In this document: piece by piece, positions 1-8,998 of the stretch
How positions within the stretch are numbered: position 1 is the stretch's first letter
Layout of the letters: every line of letters starts with the position of its first letter
Program-made: the position numbers and the translations under genes
The notes under the pieces: generated by a model
Told to the model about the DNA's origin: nothing
The model's database searches: none
What the model saw: only the letters and a program-made list of their open reading frames with translations
Source of the DNA: Bacilli bacterium
Lineage (GTDB): Bacteria; Bacillota_I; Bacilli_A; RFN20; CAG-826
DNA: 33,122 nucleotides
Assembly (NCBI GenBank): GCA_024408295.1
Contig: JAKSVE010000010.1
Coordinates: 1-33,122 of the forward strand
Direction of reading: 5' to 3'

Positions 1-3000
1 TTGTTGGATCAAGATAATCCACACTATCAGGACTTATGAATCTTCCTATCTCTGGGTCATAGTAACGTGAGGATAACCAGTAGAGAGATGTCTCAACATC
101 ATAATAATAGCTTCCATAACGTATCGGGTTAATATTGCCGACAAAAGAAGAAGATGTATTTGTTGTTCCATCCGGGTTAAGAACCTTACAATTTCCCCAA
201 GCGTCGTACGAGTATCTTGCCACTATTTCGTTTTCTGTTGCTATCGCGATGACATCGCCTCTCCAGTTTTTGATGTACCAGTAATGGCGCAATCGAGTGT
301 CGATAAAGCCGCATAACCCCTCTCCATCGTAAACGAAGTGTATGAATCCCGTTTCGCTTTCCTGAATTAATAATTTGCCCAAGGATGAATAATAAAACTT
401 CGTATTACCCTTCTTTGTCCTACGCCCGTTGCAATCGTATTTAAATTCGATGTTGTCAAACATGGTTAACAACCTACGGGACCATGAAGCTGATTTTGTA
501 ATTCCGTCTTTCGTAACGGAGATAAGATTGCCCATATTGTCGTAATTATATGTATTCACCGCTACTGGAGTATTGTTTAGTTTGTATACCAGTGACGTTA
601 ATTTCCCCTGTGAATCATACGAAAAACTTTTCTTTGTGATGCCGCTTTCGATGTGTGAAAGTCTATCGCCTTCATAGCGATATGATATTGAGAGGCCGTT
701 GGTTGACTCTTCGCATAGTCTCCCAAGACCGTCGTATGTGTAAGAAGTGGAATTTCCATCGATTGTGACGTTGGTAGCCCTTGATTCGTTGTCATATTGA
801 ATGCTTTGTGTGGATGAGGTTCCTCCGCCGAAACGAGTAATCCTTGAAGGCGAAGGCGATGTACCAACATATTCCGCGGTGAATCCGGCAACACCAGTTT
901 TAGTAGTCACTCTTCCCATCCAATCGTATGAATAAAGGATTACATCCACCGGTCCGTTCAAGTCTCGAATCTCTACTCTGATTATTCTGCCATCGTTCTC
1001 GTCAATGGTTGTTTTTATTCCGCCGAATAGATTGTAAGATTCCTCCCATCTTTCGTAATCGTGAGTTATGGACAGATTTTCGTAATTTTCGCCGCTCATC
1101 CGTTCCTCGACCATCATATCGTAGGAATCATACGTAAAATCCCAGTCCACGCCTATGTATTTGTCTTCAATTTTCCCAATCTTGGATATGGCGTTAGAAT
1201 AATTGTTCTCGTTATTGTGCCATATTTTGGTTTTTCTTTCCCCACCCTTCATTTCATTTAGCATTTTCCCGTAAATGTCAAATGACCTTTCAAACGACTC
1301 AAAATATTCCGCTCCATACCAATATGTTGTGTATATTACAGAATGACTTTCGCTAACTGACATATAAGGCGCGCTATTTTCTTCGTATCCGAATGATGAT
1401 ATCATAGACGATTCGTCTCTGTTTATGGATATAACATGGTTGCAATGGCTTGAATGGAAGGAGGTTATACCGTTGTTGCCGTGTGTAATTGAATTGCTGA
1501 AGGCTTGAACCCCATTCTGTTCAAAGGCGACGTTCCTGATTCTTTCAAGCGTATCATATTCAAATCTTGTGGACGTCCCTGATGGTATGAAATCGCCGTT
1601 AATCATCTCGGCTTTTCGAATCTCTATTAAGAGACCTCTAGAATACTGAAAAACATTAGATCCTTTGCCAAGGGTGAAAGCCGCAATTATGTTCTCTCCG
1701 TGTTCGTCCGTCTCTACTTGCGTAGTCACCCATTGATCGCCATTATGTCTTATTGTGGTGCTTATAAGAATGCCAAATGGAGAATATGTGTACACTTTAG
1801 AGTAGTCTTGCGTTCCGTCTTCAACAACGATTCCCCTCTCATCAAAAATATCATATTCTTTATTGAGTTCATCAACTATATTCCCGGAGACGTTTAAGGA
1901 ATATCTCGTATTGTCGATTATGGTGGAGAAGTTAGGAGTTTGCGTTGGCCTAATGTTTTCCCTCCTTAGGTTTCCGTTCCTTAATTTCCTCCCTCTAATT
2001 TCTACAAATACTGAGGTTAATCCCCAATCTTCACTTAGCAAGTTGTTGCTTGTGTTGATGTTGCTTGTAGCAAAAAGTCCAGAGACATTAGAGACCCTAG
2101 TTCTACAGTTTTCGGTTACCAATCCCCTTCTAGGAATGTCTCTTCTATGCATGATTGCATATAAAATGTCTTGTTCCGACATTCTTGGTGACGATGAACC
2201 TCCGTTAGTATGGGTCGCCCTGATTCCGTTGTTAAAAATGTAGAGATTTTTTGATTCGACAATTCTCTCACTATTTACTTCGATGCATAGATTTCCGATA
2301 TCGCTAAATGCCATAAATGGTACTCCAAAGCGGAAGCGGTGACATGTGCCGTTATCTGACATCAGCCTCAGAGTAATACTATTCGCCGGCAATTTCTGAT
2401 TTCCCGTTGCGAAACTGAGAGGAATCTGAACCATCTGCCATACGTTTGAGGCTTGCCCGTTGATTCCGATCCTCGATACTTGTTGCCCATAAATTGCCTC
2501 TATGTATGGGAATGTGCCGCATGGTTCATCTATCATGATATACATGCTCATAAGAAAATCTTGTGCATAGCTTGGCGGAAAATCGACAAATGAAAATGGT
2601 ATCTCGATGCCTAGACTTTGGCTTTGATAAACAAGCTCCCCGTTTAACGAATCGCTTGTTACGCTTATTCCGCTTTCCGGAGAATGCGGAACGGTCATCT
2701 TTTCCCCTTGCGGCTTGTTGAAGGCTCGGAGCATCCCGGATGTGTCAATCTCGAAGGTTGAGGACAGTCTTTCCTCTGCGTCGAATTGATACTCCGTTAT
2801 GAGGCCTCTTATGTTTGTTGTCCTCGTCTTCATGTCCGTTATGTAGTTGTAATCGACCGAAATTCTTTCATCGGCATGGATTTCATCTTGTTCTTCAAGC
2901 AAAAAACCAGTCGAAAATCTTACTGCTTTGTCGTTTTGATATTCGAATTCGATAGCTTCCTTTGTGATGGTACTATACATTTTTGTGAGCAGAGGTCCTT

Positions 3001-4450
3001 CGAAGATGGATACAATCGTTTGTGCCTGTTCTAATACGCCATTTACATTGGAGAAGAAGTGTTCGCTTATGAGGTTCCCGTTAGAATCATAGTTTAGTTG
3101 CACGCTTCTAATGGTCTCGCTACCGTTCATTTCCGCTCTGACATTAATTAGCATTCCTGATGGGTCATAATCGAGAATAACACACTCTCTTTTCACTCTT
3201 CCATTGTCGCATCTCTCGTCGTATATGACGGAGGCTTGCCCATGCTGGTTCCTTAACACGCGTTTTCTTATCAATGGGTTAATATTCGATATGAAAACTT
3301 CTGAGCGTCCTTCTCCGTCGAATATAATCGAATTCCCTTCTCCATCAACGAATTCGTATCCGTTTTGAGTAATCTGTATGGTGTTACGGGCATCCTCATA
3401 ATCGTAGTACATGTCATTTATGGTGTCGTACTTTATGTAGTCGTGGGCATAGCCAATCTCATCTATCAAAGTTAGCGTGTTATTGCCGGTATTAATAATT
3501 CTTAGATCAATGGAGAGCTTCACGCCGTTTCCATACCCCCAAAACAATGATTTTTGGATTGGCTGCATATTCGAATCGTAAACAAATTGCAGATTTATAG
3601 AGTAGCTGTTTGCCCCAATGCTGACGAGATCATTTATGATGAGGACTCTACCTGTTAAGAGATTCACCTTTGCTGCTTGGCCGATATCCGAAAAAGGTTT
3701 GCCAGAATTACTTACACTTGAGGCTGAGTGGATTTCAATCGGTACAACGCAGGAATGAGGACCGATGCTAGCTATGACCGACGACGAGGATGTTAATGGT
3801 GTATTGCATGTTATTGTAAAATCGTTTACTTCCTCTGAAGTCCCGTCGGTATATGAAGCTTGGAGGAGAAGTCCGAGTCGGTTGAATGCCTCTCCTTCCA
3901 AATAATGGGTCTTTGTAGGCTTTTTTAATATCGATAGGCTCGTCAATGAGTGATCAACAATGATTTCGAATTGTGATGAGTTGATGGATAATGTCGTGGA
4001 TTGGCTGGCCGACCCTGATGTAAAAATCATCACATCAATACATCCGGTTTGTTCATAGATATCTTTTATTGGTAATGCAATCTTTCCGTTTACGCAGGAT
4101 GCTTCATCGCAGACGAACATTCCAGATGACGTGTATACGTAGAAAGGCGTTATGGATCCTGCTACGTCGAAGGATAAAACAATGTCTATTATGCTGTTTT
4201 CGTTTCTTTCTATTTCTTCGATTAGCTGGTTGTGGTCGACGACGATTTCTATTTGTCCTTCGTTACCATCTTGATATCCATAATACCCCTCGATGCACTC
4301 GGTTGTGTTCGAAAAAGACAGCCACTGATACATTTCTACTTGTTCAGGGAGGCTTATGTCCATCTCTATTTGATTGTTGGAGATAGGCATAGACCTTCTT
4401 ATAGATAGGCGTGCACTTTGAGTTTTGTTGAAAAACTTGTTATTGTTCAT
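1..4450 (-). CDS. RHS/YD-repeat protein, 3' end outside window (partial)
   Basis: The frame is open from the ATG at 4450-4448 to base 1, giving 1483 complete codons. The segments I translated by hand, including both ends, share one frame. An SD (GGAGGTGG, 4466-4459) lies 8 nt upstream. I see no N-terminal signal peptide. Around residues 170-250 there is a bacterial Ig-like segment (GEAFNRLGLLLQASYTDGT). YD-type repeats occur sparsely after residue 420 and densely after about 1170 (YSYDWMGRV, TYDGLGRL, YNYDNMGNLISV, YDAWGN). The last visible residues hold the RHS core hallmark RYYDPEIGRFISPDS, so the variable tip lies just outside the window. Residues ~560-720 read like a beta-sandwich insert without YD repeats; this is a guess. 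RHS proteins are large cell-surface or secreted beta-cage proteins, often delivering a C-terminal toxin. Whether this one does cannot be seen here. Confidence 0.93.
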   Translation of the reverse strand, partial: MNNNKFFNKTQSARLSIRRSMPISNNQIEMDISLPEQVEMYQWLSFSNTTECIEGYYGYQDGNEGQIEIVVDHNQLIEEIERNENSIIDIVLSFDVAGSITPFYVYTSSGMFVCDEASCVNGKIALPIKDIYEQTGCIDVMIFTSGSASQSTTLSINSSQFEIIVDHSLTSLSILKKPTKTHYLEGEAFNRLGLLLQASYTDGTSEEVNDFTITCNTPLTSSSSVIASIGPHSCVVPIEIHSASSVSNSGKPFSDIGQAAKVNLLTGRVLIINDLVSIGANSYSINLQFVYDSNMQPIQKSLFWGYGNGVKLSIDLRIINTGNNTLTLIDEIGYAHDYIKYDTINDMYYDYEDARNTIQITQNGYEFVDGEGNSIIFDGEGRSEVFISNINPLIRKRVLRNQHGQASVIYDERCDNGRVKRECVILDYDPSGMLINVRAEMNGSETIRSVQLNYDSNGNLISEHFFSNVNGVLEQAQTIVSIFEGPLLTKMYSTITKEAIEFEYQNDKAVRFSTGFLLEEQDEIHADERISVDYNYITDMKTRTTNIRGLITEYQFDAEERLSSTFEIDTSGMLRAFNKPQGEKMTVPHSPESGISVTSDSLNGELVYQSQSLGIEIPFSFVDFPPSYAQDFLMSMYIMIDEPCGTFPYIEAIYGQQVSRIGINGQASNVWQMVQIPLSFATGNQKLPANSITLRLMSDNGTCHRFRFGVPFMAFSDIGNLCIEVNSERIVESKNLYIFNNGIRATHTNGGSSSPRMSEQDILYAIMHRRDIPRRGLVTENCRTRVSNVSGLFATSNINTSNNLLSEDWGLTSVFVEIRGRKLRNGNLRRENIRPTQTPNFSTIIDNTRYSLNVSGNIVDELNKEYDIFDERGIVVEDGTQDYSKVYTYSPFGILISTTIRHNGDQWVTTQVETDEHGENIIAAFTLGKGSNVFQYSRGLLIEIRKAEMINGDFIPSGTSTRFEYDTLERIRNVAFEQNGVQAFSNSITHGNNGITSFHSSHCNHVISINRDESSMISSFGYEENSAPYMSVSESHSVIYTTYWYGAEYFESFERSFDIYGKMLNEMKGGERKTKIWHNNENNYSNAISKIGKIEDKYIGVDWDFTYDSYDMMVEERMSGENYENLSITHDYERWEESYNLFGGIKTTIDENDGRIIRVEIRDLNGPVDVILYSYDWMGRVTTKTGVAGFTAEYVGTSPSPSRITRFGGGTSSTQSIQYDNESRATNVTIDGNSTSYTYDGLGRLCEESTNGLSISYRYEGDRLSHIESGITKKSFSYDSQGKLTSLVYKLNNTPVAVNTYNYDNMGNLISVTKDGITKSASWSRRLLTMFDNIEFKYDCNGRRTKKGNTKFYYSSLGKLLIQESETGFIHFVYDGEGLCGFIDTRLRHYWYIKNWRGDVIAIATENEIVARYSYDAWGNCKVLNPDGTTNTSSSFVGNINPIRYGSYYYDVETSLYWLSSRYYDPEIGRFISPDSVDYLDPT

Positions 4451-4567
4451 TGTGTTAACCACCTCCTACAGCCAGTAATAATTGTCATCCAAAGTTTATC
4501 TTAGATCTTAGAAACCCGCTACAGATAAGTTGTTATGATAATTTACACAATTAGTCAATTTATGTAG

Positions 4568-7001: not shown

Positions 7002-7532
7002 ATGCAAAGCAACGTCATCTCATTCAAAATCGATCATTCAAAACTACAGCCAGGATTATATCTTCACGAAGTTAAGGACTACGGCACAAATTATGTGACA
7101 ACCTACGATTTCAGATTCAAAAGGCCAAATCAGGGTGACTACCTAACACCATGCCAGTCACACACAATAGAACATGTCATGGCAACATTCTTCACCGCAA
7201 AGCTAAAAGACAAAGTCTATTGGGGACCAATGGGATGTCTAACCGGATTCTATCTTGTTCTAAACGGCAAGCATGATGTTGAAGAGGTGATGTCTACTCT
7301 CGACGAGTGCGAAGCCTTCTGGCAAGAGCTCCTTGCCTCAGAGACGGTTCCTGCAAAGAATCCATATAGATGCGGTAACTATAAACTTCTTGATATTAAA
7401 GAAGGTTATAAAGCGTGGAATGCATTCTATTCTTCGAGAAACGAATGGGGAAAAGAATATCCAATCATCGATGAGTGTCCAAGTGATGAAGGATATGAAA
7501 AAGACATCGATTACAACATTAATTTAAAATAA
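7002..7532 (+). CDS. luxS: S-ribosylhomocysteine lyase (LuxS)
   Basis: This 176-residue protein matches LuxS in length and motifs. The metal-binding HTIEH gives H54, E57 and H58, and NPYRCGNY supplies the third ligand, C124. GPMGCLTGFYL contains C79, corresponding to the catalytic cysteine of the family. LuxS cleaves S-ribosylhomocysteine to homocysteine and DPD, the precursor of the AI-2 signal, within the activated methyl cycle. It is cytosolic and homodimeric. No methyl-cycle partner gene (pfs, metK) is adjacent; it forms a single-gene unit with its own promoter and terminator. Confidence 0.97.
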   Translation: MQSNVISFKIDHSKLQPGLYLHEVKDYGTNYVTTYDFRFKRPNQGDYLTPCQSHTIEHVMATFFTAKLKDKVYWGPMGCLTGFYLVLNGKHDVEEVMSTLDECEAFWQELLASETVPAKNPYRCGNYKLLDIKEGYKAWNAFYSSRNEWGKEYPIIDECPSDEGYEKDIDYNINLK

Positions 7533-7538
7533 TTTGAT

Positions 7539-7561
7539 GGGCGAGGAAACTCGTCCTTTTT
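7539..7561 (+). terminator. Intrinsic terminator of luxS
   Basis: The stem GGGCGAG/CTCGTCC (7 bp with one G-U) is capped by a GAAA loop and followed by five Ts, 6 nt after the luxS stop. Confidence 0.9.
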
Positions 7562-7634
7562 ATACGCGTACGTAATATAAAGGAATCGTGTGCATAGGCA
7601 AAAAACAAAAATAAAAAAATTTTTCAAAAAGTTG

Positions 7635-7662
7635 TTGACGGGTAAAAAATTAAGCGTATAGT
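7635..7662 (+). promoter_or_regulatory. Promoter of the large ncRNA
   Basis: TTGACG (7635-7640), a 16-nt spacer and TATAGT (7657-7662) form a good sigma-70-type promoter, preceded by an A/T-rich upstream stretch with A- and T-runs. Transcription would begin near 7669, where the sequence switches abruptly from A/T-rich to purine- and G-rich. Confidence 0.75.
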
Positions 7663-7668
7663 TATGTA

Positions 7669-8753
7669 TCTGCCGGGCGGCAAGAACCAAGAAATTGGGG
7701 AAACATTAATCCAAAGGATTAATGGAAGGCGTCACGGCGAAGCATCATTACCTGAAAATCCGAAAGCTGAGGATCCGTGAGGACACCGGGCGTAAGGAGT
7801 ATCAGGAAAACCGTCTGACCGATGGCCTAGGATGAGAGTTCTAGGTGGGCCAAGGACCGATAGCGGGAAGCCGCCGTAGCAGGAAATTGGTTGACAACGG
7901 GGAACGATGAGAAACGGGTCGCAGGTCCTAACAAGGGCTGAGCGGAAAAGCCTCAGAGTGAACGACGACACCGAATAAGCCATCCGAAAGGAAGGGCTGA
8001 AGGGGAGTGCCGGAACCCATCGGAAAGCAATCAGGTGAGAATCCGAGAGGAACTGACCTGATGCTGAAGAGAATCCTGGAGATCGCGAAAGCGAAGAGAG
8101 GAATCATTCAGCCGAGCAGGATTGCAGCAGGACTCATTCATCGGACGAAAGGAAGATGAAGCAAGGCGCTTGCAAGACCTGACCATTGACCAGCTAGCGA
8201 GAACCGAGAAATCGGGGAAACCGCTCAAGCCTCTGGTTGTTCCCGGGAAACTGAGAACAATCCACTTGAGAAGGAAGCGAGGAACGCCAAAGAAACGGGG
8301 AAGGAAAGAGAACCGAAGAAAGGGCGGGAGCAAAGCTAGTTGAAGGTTGGAAGGCAGATGGAAGTCTGCTAAGCCTCAGCAAGAAGGAAGGGCCCGTAAG
8401 GGGACGGACGAAGGCTGGGAACGAAGCGATGAAGGCAAATGTTTGATCGTAAGGTCAAAAGAGTGGCTGGAGCTAATCCGACTAGACAATGGGAAAGCGG
8501 GGGAGGAAAAATAACCCGCAGGAGAATCAAACCACTGAAATCCGGAAGGAAGTAGGGAGGAGATTCCTGGATCGACCCAGAATAAAGGCGAGGCCCGAAA
8601 GGACAGCGAGACAAAGACTGGGTGATTGCTAAGGAGATGGCAAGAGATGGAGTACCCTCCATCGCCAGCGCTAGACCGTGCACTTCGTGAGGAGTGAGAG
8701 CGGTGCAGGAAGCGTATGATGCAAGGGGGAGGCAGCGAAAGCTGTCTTTTTTT
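7669..8753 (+). ncRNA. Large structured non-coding RNA (~1.08 kb), class unassigned
   Basis: The stretch has its own promoter and terminator and no credible gene in any frame. Its base make-up is unlike the flanks: rich in G and A, with many GAAA and GGAA runs. Readable hairpins include CCAA-GAAA-TTGG (7687-7698), a 9-bp stem CATTAATCC/GGATTAATG (7704-7724), ATCAGGT/ACCTGAT (8030-8062), CCGA-GAAA-TCGG (8204-8215), TTGTTC/GAACAA (8237-8260), TTTGATC-GTAA-GGTCAAA (8442-8459) and the terminator. Repeated GNRA loops on short stems are typical of ornate large RNAs such as ROOL, GOLLD and OLE. It is longer than the usual size of those classes as I remember them, and I could not match it to a consensus. 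I see no group II intron domain V, intron-encoded protein, RNase P or tmRNA signature. Function unknown. The exact 5' end is inferred. Confidence 0.8.
8731..8753 (+). terminator. Intrinsic terminator of the large ncRNA
   Basis: GGCAGC-GAAA-GCTGTC forms a 6-bp stem (one G-U) with a GNRA loop, followed by seven Ts. Confidence 0.9.
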
Positions 8754-8842: not shown

Positions 8843-8947
8843 ATGGCAAAAGAAATCAGAAGCAAAAACTTAGATGTCAACGCTACTTTTAGCTTTTACT
8901 TTAGCGGCTACTTTTACTTTAGCCACTTTTCGCCAGCGATGACTTAA
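8843..8947 (+). CDS. Phe/Tyr-rich leader peptide of the aro operon attenuator (34 aa)
   Basis: An AGGAG (8832-8836) precedes the ATG. The peptide has a plain N-terminal half, then the control stretch TFSFYFSGYFYFSHF: six Phe and three Tyr within residues 16-29. The codon block TTT TAC TTT AGC occurs twice (8894-8905 and 8912-8923). The last codons (SPA) are the 5' arm of the antiterminator. The downstream operon makes exactly Phe and Tyr, so ribosome stalling when charged tRNA-Phe or tRNA-Tyr is scarce should favour read-through. This is the classical attenuation logic of pheA and trp leaders. The reading is direct; the regulatory role is inferred from the structure. Confidence 0.88.
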   Translation: MAKEIRSKNLDVNATFSFYFSGYFYFSHFSPAMT

Positions 8948-8998
8948 TTTAGAGAATAAATGAGTTATGAACGCTGGCGAAAGTCAGCGTTTTGTTTT
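8928..8998 (+). promoter_or_regulatory. Transcription attenuator: mutually exclusive antiterminator and terminator
   Basis: TTTCGCCAGCG (8928-8938) pairs perfectly over 11 bp with CGCTGGCGAAA (8972-8982). The second segment is also the 5' arm and loop of an intrinsic terminator: ACGCTGGC-GAAA-GTCAGCGT (8971-8990), then TTTTGTTTT. The first segment lies in the last codons of the leader peptide. A ribosome reaching the stop at 8945-8947 masks it and the terminator forms. A ribosome stalled earlier at Phe/Tyr codons frees it and the antiterminator forms. Confidence 0.88.

Follow-up and report, generated by a model that had tools for sequence, protein, structure and literature searches.

A putative new class of large, free-standing structured RNA in uncultured gut Bacilli

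Few bacterial RNAs are as large and intricate as the one described here, and ROOL, GOLLD and OLE have proved to assemble into homo-oligomers of RNA alone, in part through A-minor contacts and kissing loops (PMC12286853). ROOL and GOLLD are of phage and prophage origin, and ROOL forms an octameric RNA-only cage (PMC12286853). OLE, of about 600 nt, forms a ribonucleoprotein complex. We analysed a window (the whole stretch of DNA under study, 33,122 nucleotides) from an uncultured gut bacterium, in which a free-standing RNA gene of about 1085 nt lies between luxS (7002-7532) and a chorismate mutase-prephenate dehydratase gene assigned by Pfam. An earlier note on this DNA had described a promoter, a switch to G/A-rich sequence, strong local hairpins of which several are GNRA-capped, an intrinsic terminator and the absence of a credible protein, and each of these descriptions was borne out. 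It had placed the RNA at 7635-8753; the end at 8753 and the length of ~1.08 kb stand, while 7635 belongs to the promoter and the transcript is expected to start near 7669.

The RNA stretch consists of 66% purine and 53% G+C, compared with 49-53% purine and 41-42% G+C in the flanks. The single-sequence minimum free energy of the 1085-nt RNA was -376.8 kcal/mol, against -318.3 +/- 9.1 for dinucleotide shuffles (z -6.4). The window copy has nine GNRA-capped hairpins with a stem of at least 4 bp and the shuffles have 1.1 +/- 1.1, an approximately 8-fold enrichment. The coordinates of the gene and its elements are collected in Table 1.

Table 1. Signals and predicted structural elements of the RNA gene (window coordinates), with the second copy of the same genome
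Feature	Position	Strand	Remarks
A/T-rich A-tract, UP-element-like, 5' of the -35 box	7602-7634	+	seen in the sequence; A-rich tract 5' of -35 in 11/11 copies
Sigma-70-type promoter TTGACG-16-TATAGT	7635-7662	+	10/12 matches; same kind and layout in 11/11 copies
Large structured RNA, subtype A	7669-8753	+	start inferred from promoter, end from terminator
Closing helix GCAUCAU/AUGAUGC	7742-7748/8716-8722	+	96% of cells paired; almost invariant, hence no covariation support of its own; absent in subtype C
Helix CCUGA/UCAGG	7751-7755/7804-7808	+	columns 89-92 with 147-150; compensatory in 3/4 pairs (CCUG/CAGG, CUCA/UGAG); outside the RNAalifold consensus
Long-range helix CCGUCU/AGAUGG	7811-7816/8635-8640	+	95% paired; one compensatory pair
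Long-range helix CCGAUGG/CCAUCGG	7819-7825/8017-8023	+	100% paired; across copies CCGAUGG/CCAUCGG, CCGGUGG/CCACCGG, CCAAUGG/CCAUUGG
Hairpin, GNRA loop 7834-7837	7826-7845	+	compensatory in 7/7 pairs, 99% paired; GNRA in 10/10 copies, letters vary
Hairpin, GNRA loop 8087-8090	8082-8095	+	compensatory in 5/5 pairs; GNRA in 10/10 copies, letters vary
Core domain (helices 8182-8190/8485-8493, 8191-8198/8335-8342, 8224-8229/8265-8270, 8237-8245/8252-8260, 8375-8382/8412-8419)	8182-8493	+	82-91% of cells paired
Hairpin GCAGAU-GGAA-GUCUGC, most conserved element	8354-8369	+	100% paired; loop GGAA in 10/10 copies
Hairpin AUGGAG-UACC-CUCCAU	8647-8662	+	compensatory in 6/6 pairs, 95% paired
Intrinsic terminator, hairpin then T-run	8724-8753	+	hairpin and T-run end every copy compared
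Second copy in the window's genome, shorter, subtype C	L032:3290-4218 (G000 contig 38)	-	between kdgK-side cluster and lipoprotein gene

Homologues were searched by BLAST across the genus, which gave three other genomes, and a divergent copy was then used as a query and gave further copies, including the second copy in the window's own genome (G000) and one in another genus (G125). At least 11 copies of 929-1101 nt are present in five genomes of uncultured Bacilli, of which four belong to one genus and the fifth (G125) to a sister genus, with up to three copies per genome. They fall into five subtypes: A in G000 (the window copy), G026, G034 and G036, where it seems to be a single copy divided between two contigs; B and D each in G026 and G034; C in G000 and G036; and E in G125. 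The identity is about 44-54% between most subtypes, 64-67% between B and C, and 67-94% within subtypes. Among the genomes of the genus, only the four that carry the RNA were found to have luxS; they resemble a subclade with a gene content of its own.

The neighbouring genes of the copies were compared. Subtype A adjoins luxS and pheA in G000 and has pheA on one side in G036, whereas in G026 and G034 it lies beside a starch-synthase-like gene (glgA) and a saccharopine-dehydrogenase-like gene. Subtypes B and C adjoin uronate-degradation genes and a lipoprotein gene, and the uronate locus that corresponds to the subtype C site of G000 carries subtype B in G026 and G034. Subtype D is flanked by transporter genes, and subtype E by a gene for a Wzy_C protein. 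In G036, about 8 kb of large secreted or lipoprotein-like genes lies between luxS and the RNA (contig 134, L012:4668-12804), an indication that other DNA has been inserted at this intergenic site as well. A palindromic ACGCGT-like stretch (TATACGCGTACGTAATAT) is located at 7561-7585 of the window, and a similar form is present upstream of several copies (A and C in G036, A in G026 and G034); it could be a regulator site or a common genomic word.

Ten full copies from the five metagenome-assembled genomes were aligned with MAFFT by sequence only. The RNAalifold consensus on this alignment contained 126 pairs, 82 of which had undergone compensatory double changes in one or more copies. On a parallel alignment, RNAalifold with RIBOSUM scoring gave -259.7, compared with -81.6 +/- 7.8 for column shuffles (z -22.8); the columns were shuffled within gap and conservation classes, and dinucleotides were not preserved. 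As a held-out test against circularity, each subtype was removed in turn, the structure was derived from the rest, and pairs were counted in the removed subtype. The results showed that 70.6, 74.0, 81.6, 77.7 and 74.0% of the alignment cells paired, versus 30-43% when the partner was slid by 1-3 columns. In the two core stretches, 82% and 91% of cells paired, against 65% and 71% after letter shuffles and 24-42% after sliding, and double changes were found in 16/25 and 20/27 pairs, respectively. Because only 10 full copies from five genomes were aligned, per-pair statistics of R-scape grade are lacking. Covarying stems, which the earlier note had named as the evidence to look for in homologues, are thus present beyond the level of shuffles and slides, and the criterion of compensatory changes beyond chance for a structured non-coding RNA is met.

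The window region and related copies were also scanned with cmscan against all 4227 families of Rfam 15. No family was found at gathering thresholds, nor at E-values up to 10 for the window region and up to 5 for eight loci that represent the other subtypes. In the permissive scan, PrrB/RsmZ matched the terminator with 20.3 bits, which we regard as noise. We are highly confident that this is a real, functional structured RNA that is not represented in Rfam 15.

At the level of sequence comparison, the copies establish a gene running from promoter to terminator that encodes no protein, keeps its predicted architecture, occurs as paralogues and is not tied to one locus. In this architecture the two ends are predicted to pair with one another (GCAUCAU with AUGAUGC) and to enclose nested long-range helices and numerous hairpins with GNRA loops; besides the closing, long-range and core helices there are about a dozen local hairpins. 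Subtype C has neither the 5' and 3' end domains nor the closing helix, suggesting that the core is the constant part and that the end domains are not always needed. The three loops at 7834, 8087 and 8360 have a GNRA sequence in 10/10 copies, and in the first two the letters vary. Loops that remain GNRA in all copies while their letters vary behave as tertiary docking sites would, although this is inferred.

Taken together, our preferred reading is a large structural RNA of a new class (0.93-1.1 kb), free-standing and acting in trans, that works as a compact particle, to which we give a probability of roughly 60%; the particle step is inferred, without expression or biochemical data. Judging from the strong-looking promoter and the conserved terminator, the RNA would accumulate as a stable folded molecule, for which there are no transcript data. 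The fixed GNRA loops may then dock into receptors through A-minor contacts and draw the arms together in a compact particle, an inference without structural data. Such a particle would serve as a scaffold, formed either by the RNA alone as a homo-oligomer, like ROOL and GOLLD, or together with proteins, like OLE; there is no evidence yet of an oligomer or a partner. A more speculative and rather doubtful extension is that the RNA represents a further architecture of self-assembling RNA particle, chromosomal instead of phage-borne, with two or three paralogues per cell forming separate or mixed particles in a cellular role.

The alternative that survives best is in fact one branch of this reading, namely that the RNA depends on proteins in the manner of OLE and is inert without a dedicated partner. 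OLE, an RNA comparable in kind, does form a ribonucleoprotein complex, and some unpaired stretches of the RNA described here, for instance GGAACCCA and AAAACGAG, are conserved. No conserved neighbouring protein gene was seen across the loci, which speaks against it, but partners encoded elsewhere are not excluded, so we keep it as a tentative possibility.

To describe the distribution, we used two covariance models built on the core domain, R1 (156 positions) and R2. R1 detected the RNA in only five genomes among 279 of the order, and no further copies in draws of 395 genomes of the class and 392 of the phylum. The independent model R2, run over 220 genomes of the family, agreed with R1 (G036 was not in this draw). 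R1 matches of 20-27 bits in other genomes lay inside protein genes or on the strand opposite to them (atpD, glycogen phosphorylase, phosphoglucomutase and others), and a 39-nt BLAST match in G019 was antisense inside a membrane-protein gene; these were rejected. An exact-pattern scan of 84,980 species led back only to the organisms already known to carry the RNA, with the record names Bacillales bacterium UBA1744 (three copies), Bacilli bacterium Horse_feces352 (three), Horse_feces350 and Bacillales bacterium SUG1798. More distant relatives and copies on metagenome contigs, which were outside the search, are possible.

The distribution is patchy, with 5/224 genomes of the family carrying the RNA, as would be expected from a selfish, satellite-like cassette that moves between intergenic sites and whose structure serves its own spread, for example as the substrate of a mobilising enzyme, and not the cell. 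Subtype A also has reciprocal empty sites: the luxS-pheA gap of G026 and G034 is about 365 bp long and contains no RNA, while its downstream promoter and leader region can be aligned, and no RNA was found within ~1.5 kb downstream of the starch-synthase-like gene of G036. Two copies, in addition, sit directly 3' of host terminators. Nevertheless, no integrase, transposase or reverse transcriptase was found by Pfam among the flanking ORFs checked, and terminal repeats or target duplications were not recognised. Subtypes B and C hold one locus, beside the uronate genes, in four genomes, and in each subtype the copies cluster according to the same pairs of genomes. A mobile cassette is thus an unlikely explanation.

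This RNA resembles the known large RNA families (ROOL, GOLLD, OLE, HEARO and raiA) in size, ornateness, GNRA loops and gut habitat, and might be a highly diverged member of one of them. However, the Rfam models of these five families gave no match at E-values up to 5-10. The RNA is also absent from the phage, IMG/VR and plasmid collections searched, while ROOL and GOLLD were described from phages and prophages (PMC12286853): nothing credible was found in 50,697 phage records, IMG/VR or plasmids, and BLAST of phage and plasmid collections was empty. Twelve motif-only matches to a second IUPAC pattern in IMG/VR scored at most 19.4 bits with R1 and were discarded. A literature search limited to openly licensed papers retrieved no description of this RNA. 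We consider this origin very improbable; between a long member of ROOL, GOLLD or OLE and a new class, which the earlier note had left undecided, the lack of Rfam matches (group II models included) and the extensive compensatory change favour a new class.

The position beside the aromatic biosynthesis operon, one of the reasons for which the earlier note had expected an undescribed system, is not a clue to function. A role in cis, as a leader of luxS or the aro operon or as an antisense element, would fit the location of the RNA between them on the same strand, but the RNA runs from a promoter to a terminator of its own, the aro operon is served by a separate promoter and Phe/Tyr leader peptide downstream of the RNA, the orthologous gaps of two related genomes lack the RNA, and the other copies adjoin uronate, glycogen, transporter and Wzy genes, so that this explanation can hardly be maintained. 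Since subtype A occupies different sites in sister lineages, the RNA appears to be a self-contained unit, and, as far as the genomic positions tell, it most likely acts in trans, with the neighbouring operon being incidental. The leader itself, upstream of pheA, is a short Phe/Tyr-rich ORF (MAKEIRSKNLDVNATFSFYFSGYFYFSHFSPAMT*, 8843-8992, forward strand) flanked by a TTGACA promoter (8796) and a terminator hairpin (8969-8992); it looks like a classic attenuation leader peptide of the aro operon, and its region can be aligned in G036, G026 and G034. Elsewhere in the window, a reverse-strand frame of at least 1487 aa (2-4462) continues past the edge of the contig and has an Rhs/YD-repeat-like core at its end (RYYDPEIGRFISPDS...).

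A coding gene was sought in the RNA region and none was found. The antisense ORFs had no Pfam match, the longest frame changed strand and phase from copy to copy, and 272/307 alignment gaps between copies (178 + 94 versus 35) were not multiples of three, so the absence of a conserved reading frame, the other criterion for a structured non-coding RNA, is met. A degenerate group I or group II intron, an rRNA fragment or a protein gene, at which the GNRA-rich large RNA and some long antisense frames might hint, is practically ruled out by these results together with the lack of any match to the Rfam intron cores or to rRNA and the intergenic position of copies that have their own promoter and terminator.

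Returning to the known systems, the RNA shares with ROOL that it is a large, ornate, free-standing non-coding RNA of gut bacteria with many hairpins. It differs in having no match to the ROOL model at E-values up to 10, in its length of ~1.08 kb, and in lying on chromosome-like contigs beside housekeeping genes and not in phages; the phage or prophage context of ROOL, often near tRNA islands, was not found, the flanks being metabolic with one tRNA 1.5 kb from the subtype E copy. Like GOLLD, of which many exceed 800 nt, it is very large and has one part that is more variable between lineages. In contrast to GOLLD, it has no match to the Rfam model, which represents the conserved 3' region, no phage or tRNA-island context was seen, and both end domains are optional, being lost in subtype C. 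With OLE it shares being a large, ornate and presumably trans-acting RNA of Bacillota; it differs in giving no model match, in being nearly twice as long, with two or three paralogues per genome, and in having no conserved partner gene nearby. With the 10 aligned copies, a consensus and covariance models are at hand for use in searches, probing and cryo-EM. An unrelated new class of ~1.1 kb, with several paralogues on apparent chromosomes and conserved GNRA loops, would provide an independent test of whether RNAs of the ROOL, GOLLD and OLE kind usually build particles, and of their role outside phages.
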